The notes under the pieces: model-generated
Seen by the model: only the letters and a program-made list of their open reading frames with translations
Database searches by the model: none
Told to the model about the DNA's origin: nothing
Shown here: piece after piece, positions 9,761 to 15,310 of the stretch
Position numbering within the stretch: position 1 is the first letter of the stretch
Layout: each line of letters opens with the position of its first letter
Translations under genes and position numbers: made by a program
Origin: a virus
Length of the DNA stretch: 24,383 bases
IMG/VR virus record: IMGVR_UViG_3300020536_000037
Location: 1 to 24,383 of that record
Strand: one strand, 5' to 3'

Positions 9761-11509
9761 TTATCTTCTTACTACTGTCCTTGCACTAGCACTTGCCCTA
9801 CCACCTGCGCTTAGACTAGATAAAAGACTTTGTAATCCACCACTTTGTGGTGCTTGTGAAGGTAAGCCTCCTACTGGACCTGCGGGAGCAGGGGACGTTT
9901 GCTCAACCATTTGTTCGGTACCAGCAGGAGGTAATTCTGGGGTAAAGATATCTTCAATCGCATCTTCAATTGATACTCCCTTTTGACGGGCTTTAATTAC
10001 TTGTGCGATTTTTTTCACGATATCAGATGCATCCCCACCTGATGCTGCTAGTTGCGGAATTGCTTGAGTGTACGCCTGTAGCGAACCTACCAATGCATTA
10101 CGCATTTCTTCCACTTCAATCTTTTCTTGTTCTTGGGTTACGTTAATACCAAATGGTAACTCACGCATAGCCATATCTTTAGATATTAATTTACCGCCAA
10201 GTGCTTGAAGCATGAAGATAAGTCCCTGCGCTGGATTAAGACCAGCAAGCATGCCATAACGAACATCGGCTGAGTAGTCATTCTTAATATCTTTTGAAGG
10301 TGTGTACTCAAGTGAGTAAGGAGAACCAGCATCAACACCACGAATTGTTTTTGTAAAGTTAAATAATTTTTCGTCCATCTCAAAACAGACAGAGATAACA
10401 TCTTTAAGAGCAGAAGCAAAGATTGCTTGGGCTGATTTAACCTGTGTATCAAAGCCACCCATAAGCGCTTGAACGCCTTGTCCCGTGACTATTGATGCAT
10501 CTATGTTTCCAGTTCTTGACTCTGGATAACGTGTTCCAGTACGCAACTCATTAAGTAATACTTGTTGCTCAGTGAACGCTCCTGGTGGAATATTTAAATC
10601 TACACGGCGCACACCTGCTGGTGAGTTGGTGCGGATGATTGCATCTCCACCCAACTGTAGTTCTTGAACATCGCCTGGTACAACAATTGGTGCTTGTACT
10701 GATTTCTCTGCTGCTTCCATCGCAAGTAATGCGAACCTATTACGAAGCAGTTGGATACCTAGTACGTCATCAAATTGACCACGCATCTCACCGTCTAGTG
10801 ATGGACGCTTTGCCACCACAACTTGCATTTTACCAAGTGGATTTTTGACTTGAGATAAAACTAAATTATTCCGTGATGGAATAAAGATGGTTGATTGGTC
10901 TTTATCGTAATAACGAATAAGGTCAATACGTGCATCTAGGTTCTGCTCATAACGGTCAGCGCCTAATAGTTGAATCTCAAACTCAGGATACTGTGCAACC
11001 AGTTCCGCAAGTGTAAGTGAGTATTTCTTTGCAAAGGCAATACAACGTCCGTAGCGGTCAAACTCTGGGTAAGCCCCAATCGGACTTTCTATTCGGATAC
11101 GTGGTAGCCCTGCTTCTTCGTCTAATTCAACAATGAATGGGACGAAACCAAATGTGATGTATTGGTCTGCACCTTGATACATCTGTACTTGTAAATCTGA
11201 ATTACTAAAATAATTTGTTGCAATACGTGTTCGCTTATCAGCAAAGACTCTTGCTCTATCTGATACCTGATTGGCTGCAGAACAGTTTACTGCTGGCAGT
11301 GGAGCCATTACCTCTGATAAGTCACGGGCAACAATGTCAATAAAGTTTGCTACTACGTTAGCATCTACACCCTCTGGAAAGAACTCAGGGTATACCTGTG
11401 ATATCTGTCCTTTACGCACAGCAAGTACATCTAGTTGTCTACGGTCTCGCTCTGATGAACGACTACGTAAAGACTCTACTCTTGCAGAGATTTGGCTTAC
11501 TGATAACAT
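9761..11509 (-). CDS. Portal protein (582 aa)
   Basis: The portal forms the dodecameric ring at the head vertex through which DNA is packaged and ejected. The sequence fits: a helical N-terminus (MLSVSQISARVESLRSRSSE), a mixed region with VVANFIDIVARDLSEVMAPL and YFSNSDLQVQMYQGADQYIT, an 'IESPIGAYPEFDRYG' wing-like segment, and a long helical stem/crown region in the second half. The C-terminus is a disordered Pro/Gly/Ser-rich tail ending TVVRR. Length is within the usual portal range. Position, two genes after the terminase on the same strand, agrees. It is followed after only 15 nt by the Ntn hydrolase gene. I rely on overall architecture and gene order, since portals have no short signature motif. 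Confidence 0.8.
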   Translation of the reverse strand: MLSVSQISARVESLRSRSSERDRRQLDVLAVRKGQISQVYPEFFPEGVDANVVANFIDIVARDLSEVMAPLPAVNCSAANQVSDRARVFADKRTRIATNYFSNSDLQVQMYQGADQYITFGFVPFIVELDEEAGLPRIRIESPIGAYPEFDRYGRCIAFAKKYSLTLAELVAQYPEFEIQLLGADRYEQNLDARIDLIRYYDKDQSTIFIPSRNNLVLSQVKNPLGKMQVVVAKRPSLDGEMRGQFDDVLGIQLLRNRFALLAMEAAEKSVQAPIVVPGDVQELQLGGDAIIRTNSPAGVRRVDLNIPPGAFTEQQVLLNELRTGTRYPESRTGNIDASIVTGQGVQALMGGFDTQVKSAQAIFASALKDVISVCFEMDEKLFNFTKTIRGVDAGSPYSLEYTPSKDIKNDYSADVRYGMLAGLNPAQGLIFMLQALGGKLISKDMAMRELPFGINVTQEQEKIEVEEMRNALVGSLQAYTQAIPQLAASGGDASDIVKKIAQVIKARQKGVSIEDAIEDIFTPELPPAGTEQMVEQTSPAPAGPVGGLPSQAPQSGGLQSLLSSLSAGGRASASARTVVRR

Positions 11510-11837: not shown

Positions 11838-13730
11838 TTATCCGTATGTTTCGGCCCATTGTTCTGAAAAGGCTTCATCTAGGTTGATTGTGTATCTTTG
11901 TGCTGATTGTGCTCTGGTTGTCCATCTATTAGATGAAAACTTTTGTAAATGATTTGTTTGCTGCATGAACTCCCGTGCCCTAAGCACGGCAAACCATAGT
12001 GCCATAACGCAGTCAGTCTTACCTCTGCTATTAGGTTTCCAAGTTATCAACTGCTGAACAAGGGACTTGAGTCCTTCAGAGTCAGTAGTAGATGGAAGTT
12101 CAATCATGTTATTCTTTTGGAACTTCTCTTCTCGTACGGTTCCAAATAGGGTAGACATAGATGCTACACCGAATGCTGCGTCCCACTTATTTTTATTAGT
12201 AATATGAGATTCAAGTCTTACGCCATACATACCAAGCCATTGCCTTAACTCATCGTCTAATGAGTATGCTTTCTGGTGGGCGTTGATTTCTACTCTAAAT
12301 TCTTGAGGCTTGTATTTCAATACAAGTTCTTCTATCGTACTTCGAATTTTTTGGGGAGTAGGTTCTGCCATGTTCACGCAGTCTAAAACATATATTCTAG
12401 AATCTATTCTGTTGTAAGTAATTACAACAAATGCTGCGTGGGCTTTATCTCCCATGGCAGGGTCAAATCCAATAATTGTGTAACCTTCTACCGCAGTCGG
12501 ATGTCCCACGCCGCCTTGGCGCAATGGACCTTTTCTGCGCTGCCCGTTGGTACTACCTTGCACCAAAGCGGGTGGGAAGATGGAATCTTCTTCGACATCC
12601 TCCTGCTGATATACCAAGGCCCATGTTGATGGTGTTACCTCGCTACGTCTTCTCTTTAATGCTAAGCCATCCCATTTCGGGAAGAGTCCTTCTTTGTCAG
12701 GTTCTTCAGAATCCCCATCCCAAGGAACATCCGATTTAGGCCAGAGCGTCTTCCAGTCTTTAGGGTCTTCCGAATATTCCAAAACAGCAGGCATGCCCAT
12801 ATAAGTAAAAGGGCTTTTACCACCAGACCAGTGCTTGGTCTCACGGAGTTCTTTGTAGAAGTCTTGCGATGCAATTCGTGTCCCTACGATTAGTAACTTA
12901 CCATTTTTACCCAGACGGGTAATAACTTCTTTTTGTAGCCAGTTGATTTGTTTTTCCCATTCATGGGCGTTGGCTGTTGTAATACAGTCATCAAGAATGA
13001 TGAGGTCAGCACGTGCTCCATAAATCTGCCCACCCATACCAAGTGCTTGGATGGTGGGGTCCTTCTCGCTAGAATTTCTAGCATCGCTCCCAAGGTAAAC
13101 GGTGTCAACTCGCCAAGTGTCTGAATCTTCTTTCCAACCACCTTCGGGGCCAAAAGTTGTTTGCAACTTTAACCAGCGTGGATGGGAGAGTCTCTGCTTG
13201 ATAGCGTACACGAATTCACGTGCCTTGACCAGCGTTTTAGAAACCACGATAATGCGGATATTTGGATTGAGAGCGATACGGTATGTGGAGTAGTTTACGG
13301 TGACTACCGTACTCTTGGCGTGCTCAGGTGGCACGTTAACCAATAGACGGGCTGGGTCACCCTTTTCGTAAACCATACTAGGGTGTAGCCATGAAGGCTC
13401 TCTATCCTCTAGTAAGTCAATCCAATCTTTGTGGTGTGGAAATAATCTTTGATTTAAGAATATCTCAGAAAACTGGGGGAAATCTATTTCCTCTTTTGGG
13501 ATACCTAGGGCTGCTAAAGAAGCATCCTTTGCGGTGGCTTTAGCCTCTGTCAGGTCGGCTGCAAATTTTTTGTCCCTGAGCATCCAGATTCTGACGGTGT
13601 CTGGTTTCTTGCCACAGATTTCCATAGCCTTATGAACAGAGTGGCCTTCGGCCACCAAGGCTAATACTTTAGCCTTTGCTCCTGCCATAGCAAGGGATTT
13701 GGGGTTAGTACCCCCTTTATCAAAACTCAT
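11838..13730 (-). CDS. Terminase large subunit with N-terminal HTH-like region (630 aa)
   Basis: This is the DNA-packaging motor: an ATPase that drives DNA through the portal and a nuclease that cuts the concatemer. A Walker-A-like loop PPEHAKST lies at residues 134-141 and Walker B LIILDD at 243-248. The RNase-H-like nuclease has GFDPAMG (Asp423), YVLD (Asp450) and a final acidic residue near KTDCVMALWF (Asp573). Residues 13-65 resemble a helix-turn-helix (LAMAGAKAKVLALVAEGHSV, HKAMEICGKKPDTVRIWM), like small-terminase or Hin-type DNA-binding domains. No separate small terminase gene is visible, so recognition may be built into this protein. It is the first gene of the leftward operon, starting just beside the switch region. 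Its ribosome binding site (AGGAC) is weak. Confidence 0.95.
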   Translation of the reverse strand: MSFDKGGTNPKSLAMAGAKAKVLALVAEGHSVHKAMEICGKKPDTVRIWMLRDKKFAADLTEAKATAKDASLAALGIPKEEIDFPQFSEIFLNQRLFPHHKDWIDLLEDREPSWLHPSMVYEKGDPARLLVNVPPEHAKSTVVTVNYSTYRIALNPNIRIIVVSKTLVKAREFVYAIKQRLSHPRWLKLQTTFGPEGGWKEDSDTWRVDTVYLGSDARNSSEKDPTIQALGMGGQIYGARADLIILDDCITTANAHEWEKQINWLQKEVITRLGKNGKLLIVGTRIASQDFYKELRETKHWSGGKSPFTYMGMPAVLEYSEDPKDWKTLWPKSDVPWDGDSEEPDKEGLFPKWDGLALKRRRSEVTPSTWALVYQQEDVEEDSIFPPALVQGSTNGQRRKGPLRQGGVGHPTAVEGYTIIGFDPAMGDKAHAAFVVITYNRIDSRIYVLDCVNMAEPTPQKIRSTIEELVLKYKPQEFRVEINAHQKAYSLDDELRQWLGMYGVRLESHITNKNKWDAAFGVASMSTLFGTVREEKFQKNNMIELPSTTDSEGLKSLVQQLITWKPNSRGKTDCVMALWFAVLRAREFMQQTNHLQKFSSNRWTTRAQSAQRYTINLDEAFSEQWAETYG

Positions 13731-13756
13731 AGTCCTGTCCCGTTTTCATTAGTTGT

Positions 13757-13838
13757 AACAGTTGTTAGATACAGTCTGTAACGCAAGTCCCCCAAGGACT
13801 TGCTACTGTTAAAAAAAGAAACAGTCTCTATACTGTTT
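13757..13838. promoter_or_regulatory. AACAGT/ACTGTT inverted repeats with two hairpins upstream of the late operon
   Basis: Four copies of AACAGT or its complement lie here (13757-13762, 13805-13810, 13820-13825, 13832-13837). Two make a perfect 7-bp hairpin (AAACAGT/ACTGTTT, 13819-13825 with 13832-13838). The outer pair encloses a perfect 8-bp hairpin GCAAGTCC/GGACTTGC (13783-13790 with 13796-13803). Neither has a U-tract in the leftward direction. The site lies just upstream of the terminase gene, so it would be in the leader or control region of the leftward mRNA. It may be a repressor/activator binding cluster or an mRNA leader structure. Confidence 0.45.
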
Positions 13839-13903
13839 AATCCGTTCAACAGCCCAAAACGAACACTTTTAAACAAAGTATTTTTTTATTAGACAAAAAA
13901 CCA

Positions 13904-13951
13904 GTACAAAATAGGACAAAAGGATACTAGTATGGGGAATATACTTTGTAC
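13904..13951. promoter_or_regulatory. Nested dyad: GTACAAA / ATACTAGTAT / TTTGTAC
   Basis: An inverted repeat GTACAAA (13904-13910) and TTTGTAC (13945-13951) surrounds a perfect 10-bp palindrome ATACTAGTAT (13924-13933). The centres of the two symmetries differ by only 1 bp. The flank to the left is very AT-rich (14 G/C in the 60 bases 13861-13920). The right arm overlaps the candidate -35 box of the rightward promoter. This is the form expected of a dimeric or tetrameric regulator operator, or of an origin element. Confidence 0.4.
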
Positions 13952-13975
13952 GGGAAAATCTTTTATGTAGATACT
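13946..13975 (+). promoter_or_regulatory. Candidate rightward promoter of the switch region
   Basis: TTGTAC (13946-13951), an 18-bp spacer and GATACT (13970-13975) make a sigma-70-like promoter with five of six -10 bases matching TATACT. The predicted start would be near 13982, about 15 nt before the first perfect hairpin of the structured RNA. The -35 overlaps one arm of the dyad, which would allow repression. It was identified by eye; alternatives such as TATACT at 13940-13945 exist. Confidence 0.35.
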
Positions 13976-13996
13976 ACACTGTATAACAGACGATAT

Positions 13997-14495
13997 TAAT
14001 CAGTCTGGGGTCATAAATGACCCACTAACTGATTAAGATACTGCTACGTCGTCCTGAACAGATGGACTCCTGGCAGATTGCTGTCTTCGGCGCCTTTAAA
14101 TACATTCGGGCGCCTCAGTTAAAACTAAAAACCTCAAGCACTATCCAACTGAGTTGTGCTTGCTCCAAGCCTCAGCGCAAGGCGCTTCGTCTAGGAGTAT
14201 TGGTGTTCGCTCCATGCGTTGCGGTGCACAGCCCCTCCACGCAATACGCTCACCTACCACCACACACAGTCGGACGCAGGCCACGGCCTCACTGGCTATC
14301 GCCAGACATTGTTCGGCCTACGCTCCCAGCCTACCTCGCTCTGGCTCGGCTTAACGGCTGCTCGCAAGCCTGCTAAACCTTACACCGCATTGTCAAATCG
14401 CCTTACGGCGATTGTCGCCCATGCTTGTCTGGCTTTTCGCCAGACTGGGCAAGAGTGACAATGGGATGTGGCGGTTGCCCGCCAGCGTGTGCTGG
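13997..14495 (+). ncRNA. Large GC-rich structured non-coding RNA candidate (~500 nt)
   Basis: No credible gene lies here, yet the sequence changes abruptly from AT-rich to about 60% GC (34/60 and 38/60 G/C counted at 14161-14220 and 14281-14340) and is dense in nested stems. First, TAATCAGT/ACTGATTA (13997-14035) encloses GGGTCA/TGACCC. CTGC/GCAG (14041-14076) encloses GTCC/GGAC. TCAGTT (14115-14120) pairs with AACTGA (14147-14152). AGCGC/GCGCT spans 14174-14186. AGGCC/GGCCT (14278-14319) encloses CTGGC/GCCAG. GGCTT/AAGCC spans 14348-14370. Finally, ATTGTCA/TGACAAT (14389-14462) forms a three-way junction with AATCGCC/GGCGATT and a GCCCA+GTCTGGC / GCCAGAC+TGGGC arm, followed by TGGCGG/CCGCCA at 14469-14484. 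Size and phage setting recall giant phage RNAs such as GOLLD and ROOL, but I cannot confirm either class. Ends are approximate. Confidence 0.6.
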
Positions 14496-14522
14496 AGAAA
14501 TATATAAGCAAAGGAGATACAG

Positions 14523-14939
14523 ATGAATAATGAAATCATAGTTCAAAACCAACTTACCCTAATGAACGAATGTTTCAATTGTTTACAACTGAATGAACTA
14601 TGCGCCGACTGCCTCGAAGCCAAGGAGGCTCGAGACGCAGTCATCGCCAACCAGATGGTTGATGAGGATATATACAGATACAAGCCAATGTATAGCAGCA
14701 TGACCAAAATCGAGGATGAGCCTTCGGCTCATGAATGGATTGGAAGTGAGGTTGTCACTCACGTCAATCCAAAAACTGGTGAGAAAACCATCAGGACTGA
14801 GTTCTTCGAACAGTCCTCATGGTTAATTGATAGAATCTTCAATCTTGATGATTCTATGGAATTAACCAAGCACGAGTGTATCTGCTCAGTGTGCCACTAT
14901 ACAATAAACAAACACGCAGTTTGTCCTAACTGCGCTTAA
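14523..14939 (+). CDS. Putative zinc-binding protein, first gene of the rightward arm (138 aa)
   Basis: No family is recognised. Two cysteine clusters suggest metal binding: CFNCLQLNELCADC near the N-terminus (two CxxC pairs) and CICSVCHYTINKHAVCPNC at the C-terminus, which ends NCA. The two clusters could form a rubredoxin- or zinc-ribbon-like unit each. The middle part is acidic and unremarkable. The ATG has an excellent ribosome binding site (AAAGGAGATACAG). It directly follows the structured RNA and is likely on the same transcript. As the first gene of the early arm it may act in host takeover or regulation, but this is inference from position. Confidence 0.6.
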   Translation: MNNEIIVQNQLTLMNECFNCLQLNELCADCLEAKEARDAVIANQMVDEDIYRYKPMYSSMTKIEDEPSAHEWIGSEVVTHVNPKTGEKTIRTEFFEQSSWLIDRIFNLDDSMELTKHECICSVCHYTINKHAVCPNCA

Positions 14940-15007: not shown

Positions 15008-15310
15008 ATGAATACATTCACATACACAGAGTCAATCCTGAAAGGTGTACGAGATTACCAGACGGTAATCAAAGGCACGGTGGTTGACCGCAGAGACGAA
15101 GTACTACCAGATGGTACTACTAAGTCCAAGTTCGTAGCATCTCGTCAGGTTACTATTACTGACCCAATTTTGGTAGCATTTGCTCGCCAAAATTTTAACA
15201 ACAACGACGAGTACAAAGTCACTATCACTGGCTATGAGACCAGCACATATTCTGAGAAAAATCAGAAGTGGTACGATAACAAAATCGTTACTGATATAGC
15301 ACTAGTATAA
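15008..15310 (+). CDS. Small beta-rich protein of unknown function (100 aa)
   Basis: The family is not recognised. The pattern of alternating hydrophobic residues (QTVIKGTVVDRRDEV, FVASRQVTITDPILVAF, EYKVTITGYETSTY, KIVTDIALV) suggests a small beta-barrel, perhaps OB-like. A basic-plus-aromatic surface could fit nucleic acid binding, but no signature proves it. The start has a strong ribosome binding site (AACAGGAGATACAAAATG). A hairpin precedes it and a strong terminator follows, so it and the 138-aa gene form a separate two-gene early unit, typical of highly expressed early proteins. Confidence 0.55.
   Translation: MNTFTYTESILKGVRDYQTVIKGTVVDRRDEVLPDGTTKSKFVASRQVTITDPILVAFARQNFNNNDEYKVTITGYETSTYSEKNQKWYDNKIVTDIALV

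Follow-up and report, generated by a model that had tools for sequence, protein, structure and literature searches.

The window (the whole stretch analysed, abbreviated W in pairwise comparisons) is the complete IMG/VR record IMGVR_UViG_3300020536_000037 of 24,383 bases, and is a piece of the ~39-kb genome of an actinophage whose relatives include E7 and F5, phages isolated on 'Ca. Planktophila'. Several related records span 38.5–41 kb, and two of the three relatives tested carry direct terminal repeats, of 123 nt in L200/L201 (39,954 bases) and 127 nt in L202/L203 (39,749 bases); L-numbers are labels of related viral sequences throughout. A gap of ~790 nt separates the late genes, which run leftward, from the early genes, which run rightward. 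The left flank of this gap is the first late gene, terL, encoding the terminase large subunit (11838–13730, minus strand; phrog_38, E 9.7e-72), and the leftward block also contains the portal gene (9761–11509, minus strand). Eighty terL relatives were fetched for comparison. Actinophages are among the relatives of the terminase, and its closest annotated records, at 60% amino acid identity, are OX376640/OX376641, which correspond to E7 and F5 themselves (PMC10202952). A pattern search of host genomes gave no terL relative.

The first early gene, gpA (14523–14939, plus strand), encodes a protein of 138 aa with zinc-ribbon-like N- and C-terminal CxxC pairs; it is the usual first early gene among the relatives and has no family match in Pfam or PHROGs. 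The gpA ribosome-binding site (14512–14516) lies immediately 3′ of the structured element, as the initial annotation had proposed. The product of gpB (15008–15310, plus strand), unannotated by Pfam or PHROGs, appears to be an SSB-like protein with an OB-fold, as judged from an AlphaFold2 model (pLDDT 92.1) that Foldseek matched to SSB proteins with E about 1e-4. Other early rightward genes encode an exonuclease, a DnaB-like helicase, a RusA-like nuclease, a CHC2 primase domain and a sigma factor. Between the structured element and gpA, the relatives L007, L096, L098 and L118 carry additional small ORFs, some of which have CxxC motifs. A longer alternative region is found in L023, and also in L024, L040 and L050; in L023 it has long AT-rich hairpins in place of the GC-rich cassette, and a further SSB-like ORF in rightward orientation.

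The region contains two units, a leader (13941–14130) and a ~380-nt GC-rich non-coding cassette (14132–14510). The sequence from the terminase start to about position 14130 can be aligned across 63 distinct relatives. Between the late genes and the cassette is an AT-rich block of about 30% GC (13830–13990), delimited by composition and repeats, which may be an unwinding element or promoter region; no iterons were found in it. Conservation over the 63 relatives revealed a nearly invariant 29-nt element, TTGTACGGGAAAATCTTTTATGTAGATAC (13946–13974), whose pattern occurs in at least 118 viral stretches and is present as a single copy per genome in the tested records that have it. This element is a putative regulatory site, possibly a phage-sigma promoter or the site of a regulator. 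The leader hairpin at 13996–14036 consists of a 9-bp outer stem (TTAATCAGT/ACTGATTAA, 13996–14004/14028–14036) and a 6-bp inner stem (GGGTCA/TGACCC), the double stem first recognized in the initial annotation, and a compensatory T-A/A-T change occurs in it among close relatives. This stem is missing in several relatives, for example L007, L012, L022 and L030, where CTGGGGTCA is kept instead. A second leader hairpin, GGCGCC...GGCGCC (14089–14114; GGCCC/GGGCC in L061), is the last shared element ahead of the cassette, and the border between the two units is an A-rich tract (14121–14133) that is U-rich on the minus strand. Upstream of terL, a conserved hairpin, GCAAGTCC/GGACTTGC (13783–13803), and ACAGT/ACTGT motifs repeated within 13753–13840 are possibly late-gene regulatory sites.

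The folded shape of the cassette is conserved by evolution. On either strand, the stretch originally noted, 13997–14495, folds more stably than expected from 100 dinucleotide shuffles (z −4.3 for plus and −5.2 for minus). For T1, the cassette type carried by the window, the minus-strand model applied to 11 distinct sequences gives pairing in 98.4% of cells, compared with 28–38% after sliding of the partners; two-sided changes affect nine pairs and occupy 31 cells, the latter against 11.5 ± 2.4 in shuffles (0/500). A second type, T2 (14 sequences), displays 98.2% pairing and 16 two-sided pairs against 7.3 ± 1.6 (0/500), and the consensus energies of T0–T7 give z values of about −6 to −18 against column shuffles; in these comparisons the structures derive from the same alignments, and shuffling does not remove relatedness. 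Peripheral hairpins are exchanged or lost as whole units among homologues; the hairpin at 14163–14197 (minus strand), for example, is replaced by longer ones in L003, L017 and L019. The three-way junction at 14389–14462 (minus strand), closed by ATTGTCA/TGACAAT at 14389–14395/14456–14462 as first described, recurs in the otherwise unrelated cassettes of L011, L012, L033, L046 and L079.

Past position 14130 homology breaks for most relatives while the flanking genes persist. Clustering of 105 inserts into cassette types gave a short type (n=36, ~165 nt of insert), T1 (n=13), T2 (n=10), T3 (n=9), T4–T7 (n=3–4 apiece) and, beyond these, small types and singletons. Related viruses carry at this site at least ten structured types that cannot be aligned with one another. 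Some modules, notably the three-way junction, recur across types, and in more distant phages (L183–L187) other modules surround the T1 core. The history of the cassette is uncoupled from that of the terminase and backbone, and the cassette is exchanged between lineages. Thus, W and L016 have terL genes that are 93.2% identical at the DNA level and cassettes without detectable similarity, while W and L061 share 80.7% identity in the terminase and 93.1% in the cassette. The pairs L007/L065 (79.4% terminase versus 92.1% cassette identity) and L026/L076 (79.5% versus 92.8%) repeat the latter pattern. The isolates E7 and F5 show the same exchange pattern as the metagenomic relatives: a nearly identical left flank is followed by a block without convincing alignment, then by a nearly identical ~170-nt structured block and by divergence up to the first gene. 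Contig ends also cluster at the cassette boundary: among 43 short right-hand ends, a few of which may reflect extraction limits instead of true contig ends, 12 lie within 123–189 nt of a GTACGG anchor; given how assemblers behave, this suggests that several cassettes coexist in one sample. A conserved fold, together with at least ten unrelated folded versions at one spot, indicates that the cassette is probably a swappable RNA part.

Which strand would carry the RNA was assessed in several ways. In Watson-Crick-only folds common to both strands, T1–T7 contain 62 pairs that are A.C on plus, and hence G.U on minus, against 25 G.T pairs, while the same count for the short type gives 2 and 10, respectively. 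Consensus energies are lower on the minus strand in T1–T4, T6 and T7 and on the plus strand in the short type, with no difference in T5. G is more frequent on the minus strand in 20 of 24 types, with short types making up most of the exceptions, and five distinct CUUG tetraloops were found on minus against one on plus. For the large cassettes, wobbles, energies, G-richness and tetraloops thus all point to the minus strand, and for the short type the first three point to plus. This assignment is favoured rather than settled, as the wobble asymmetry, with p 9e-5 alone, has p = 0.05 when unpaired transitions serve as the background. The leader, like the short type, pairs better as plus-strand RNA. 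The initial annotation described one rightward RNA of ~500 nt beginning with a rise in GC content at 13997. The element instead comprises a leader and a swappable cassette, for which, in the large types, the opposite strand is favoured, and the GC content does reach 55–60% but rises near 14100. The proposal of a large unassigned structured RNA holds as regards conserved nucleic-acid structure and compensatory changes, the covariation among homologues being strong in T1 and T2; the boundaries, and probably the strand, were misplaced.

The cassette is a covariation-supported element without Rfam assignment. Neither the window nor 26 related loci matched any Rfam 15 covariance model at gathering score, including those for introns, riboswitches and tmRNA, and no GOLLD or ROOL appeared among the weak matches of a permissive scan to E 5, so that membership of these families, suggested by the form of the element, is not supported. 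No tRNA was detected in the window, in agreement with the earlier description, or in three near-complete relatives, and a tRNA or tmRNA identity was rejected. At the nucleotide level T1, T2 and T4 have no match in annotated phages; plasmids gave no match to T1, nor GTDB contigs to the T1-core pattern. The candidate promoter placed ahead of the first stem was not recovered, no sigma-70-type promoter being called by a scan that covers neither phage nor actinobacterial promoters. The recurring ATTTGAC motif was discounted as a −35 box: no suitable −10 was seen by eye at 16–18 nt, and the motif lies mostly within a helix. At the U-rich boundary, the tract at 14121–14133 and the adjacent hairpin (14135–14141/14156–14162) are terminator-like in some members (L003, L025) but not all, and a terminator scan found no consensus there; a consistent intrinsic terminator was therefore rejected.

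The reading that we favour, with a probability of roughly 0.4, is that the cassette is a transcribed, exchangeable replication-origin RNA. The cassette would be the template of a structured untranslated RNA, leftward transcription being favoured, and this RNA would form part of the phage replication origin, situated by the AT-rich block and upstream of the SSB-like gene and the replication module. Initiation would be RNA-primed or proceed via an R-loop, and switching of cassette type would relieve competition between co-infecting genomes. This reading is preferred because the layout matches that of Ceduovirus and the neighbours (the AT-rich flank, the SSB-like gpB and the helicase and primase) fit replication. 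The gpB family adjoins the cassette in nearly all relatives, and gpB and the helicase, primase and exonuclease genes share the rightward block downstream of it. Counting against an origin are the lack of sigma-70 promoter and iterons and the large-cassette wobble signal, which is in the late direction. GC skew is uninformative as origin evidence, since the genes also switch orientation at this point.

In the c2-like lactococcal phages (Ceduovirus), the replication origin lies in non-coding DNA that separates divergent early and late blocks and is flanked by the early promoters PE1 and PE2. There are three origin types without intergroup similarity, each of which supports plasmid replication; replication may be started by the non-coding PE1 transcript, which comes from the first early promoter and whose structure is suggested to be important (PMC7150918). 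The actinophage element is likewise non-coding, lies between divergent early and late blocks and occurs as discrete types without intergroup similarity inside conserved flanks. It differs in phage group and host phylum, in having at least ten types rather than three, in the covariation and mosaicism shown for the actinophage cassettes, and in direction: the Ceduovirus transcript is early, whereas the wobble signal of the large actinophage types is late. With the likeness drawn from layout, the closest functional precedent would be the Ceduovirus origin rather than GOLLD or ROOL.

The main rival, somewhat less probable, is a free-standing large structured non-coding RNA, a functional analogue of GOLLD or ROOL, running leftward from near gpA to the U-rich boundary. 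It would diversify by exchange of modules or cassettes and act on the host or on competing phages as a scaffold, decoy or superinfection factor. Genes for tRNAs are often, but not always, found near GOLLD and ROOL, whose abundant discrete transcript forms homo-oligomers. Both are large, ornate, modular structured phage RNAs of unknown function (PMC12286853). The actinophage cassettes are also large, ornate and modular; their size, module swapping and covariation, the minus-strand signals and the terminator-like 3′ ends of some members are all consistent with a free-standing RNA. Unlike GOLLD and ROOL, they are smaller (about 200–700 nt), match no covariance model, lack a tRNA neighbourhood and take many unrelated forms at one fixed site. 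Furthermore, neither promoter nor terminator is consistent, and a free-standing RNA would not need a fixed place between divergent blocks.

It is rather unlikely that the element heads the early operon as a structured 5′ leader, with rightward transcription and control of early expression by attenuation, antitermination or mRNA stability. Its position directly ahead of the gpA ribosome-binding site, and the better plus-strand pairing of the shared leader and the short cassette type, would suit such a role, but the large cassettes favour the minus strand, and unrelated structures of up to about 700 nt are unexpected for a conserved cis-regulator. Less likely still is a structure at the DNA level, in which one-strand hairpins form a single-strand initiation or packaging site and no RNA is made. 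Such a site would be consistent with the adjoining terminase gene and SSB, and with the strand bias, because DNA, like RNA, tolerates G.T wobbles; extensive covariation between distant positions, spanning about 380 nt, and the U-rich ends are, however, more typical of RNA, and packaging sites are not expected to vary so much among close relatives. That the element is a short protein gene, or is GC-rich by chance and functionless, is highly improbable, since, despite all three plus frames being rather open in the window (81–88 codons), no frame stays open across 13 homologues, frameshifting single-base indels occur and pairing is kept through two-sided changes, consistent with the original view that 13997–14495 holds no credible gene.

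Protein cassettes are often exchanged among phages; to our knowledge, no comparable series of large swappable phage RNAs has been described. Structured phage RNAs near packaging or early-promoter regions, such as HK022 put and the phi29 packaging RNA, are much smaller, conserved in sequence and not exchanged as unrelated cassettes. What is new here is how many unrelated structured versions exist, together with their mosaicism and covariation; it is unusual for an element with covariation support and no place in Rfam to occur at a single site in many unrelated, swappable forms. Tentatively, these data may represent a new class, a hypervariable phage RNA locus at which at least ten unrelated structured RNAs of 200–700 nt, mostly from the minus strand, are exchanged at one site for RNA-level competition between phages. 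In such a locus the versions would be built from reusable modules (the three-way junction, CUUG hairpins and the recurring ATTTGAC motif) and competition would operate through type-specific origin or superinfection RNAs. The cultured phages E7 and F5, which share one cultured host, differ at the cassette site, and the proposal is thus testable now. The phage group is widespread in fresh water, and the hosts of the isolates to which it is related rank among the most abundant bacteria there. If the cassette is an origin, it would provide a natural series of transcribed origins with which to probe the role of RNA structure in initiation and to ask why origin type diversifies.
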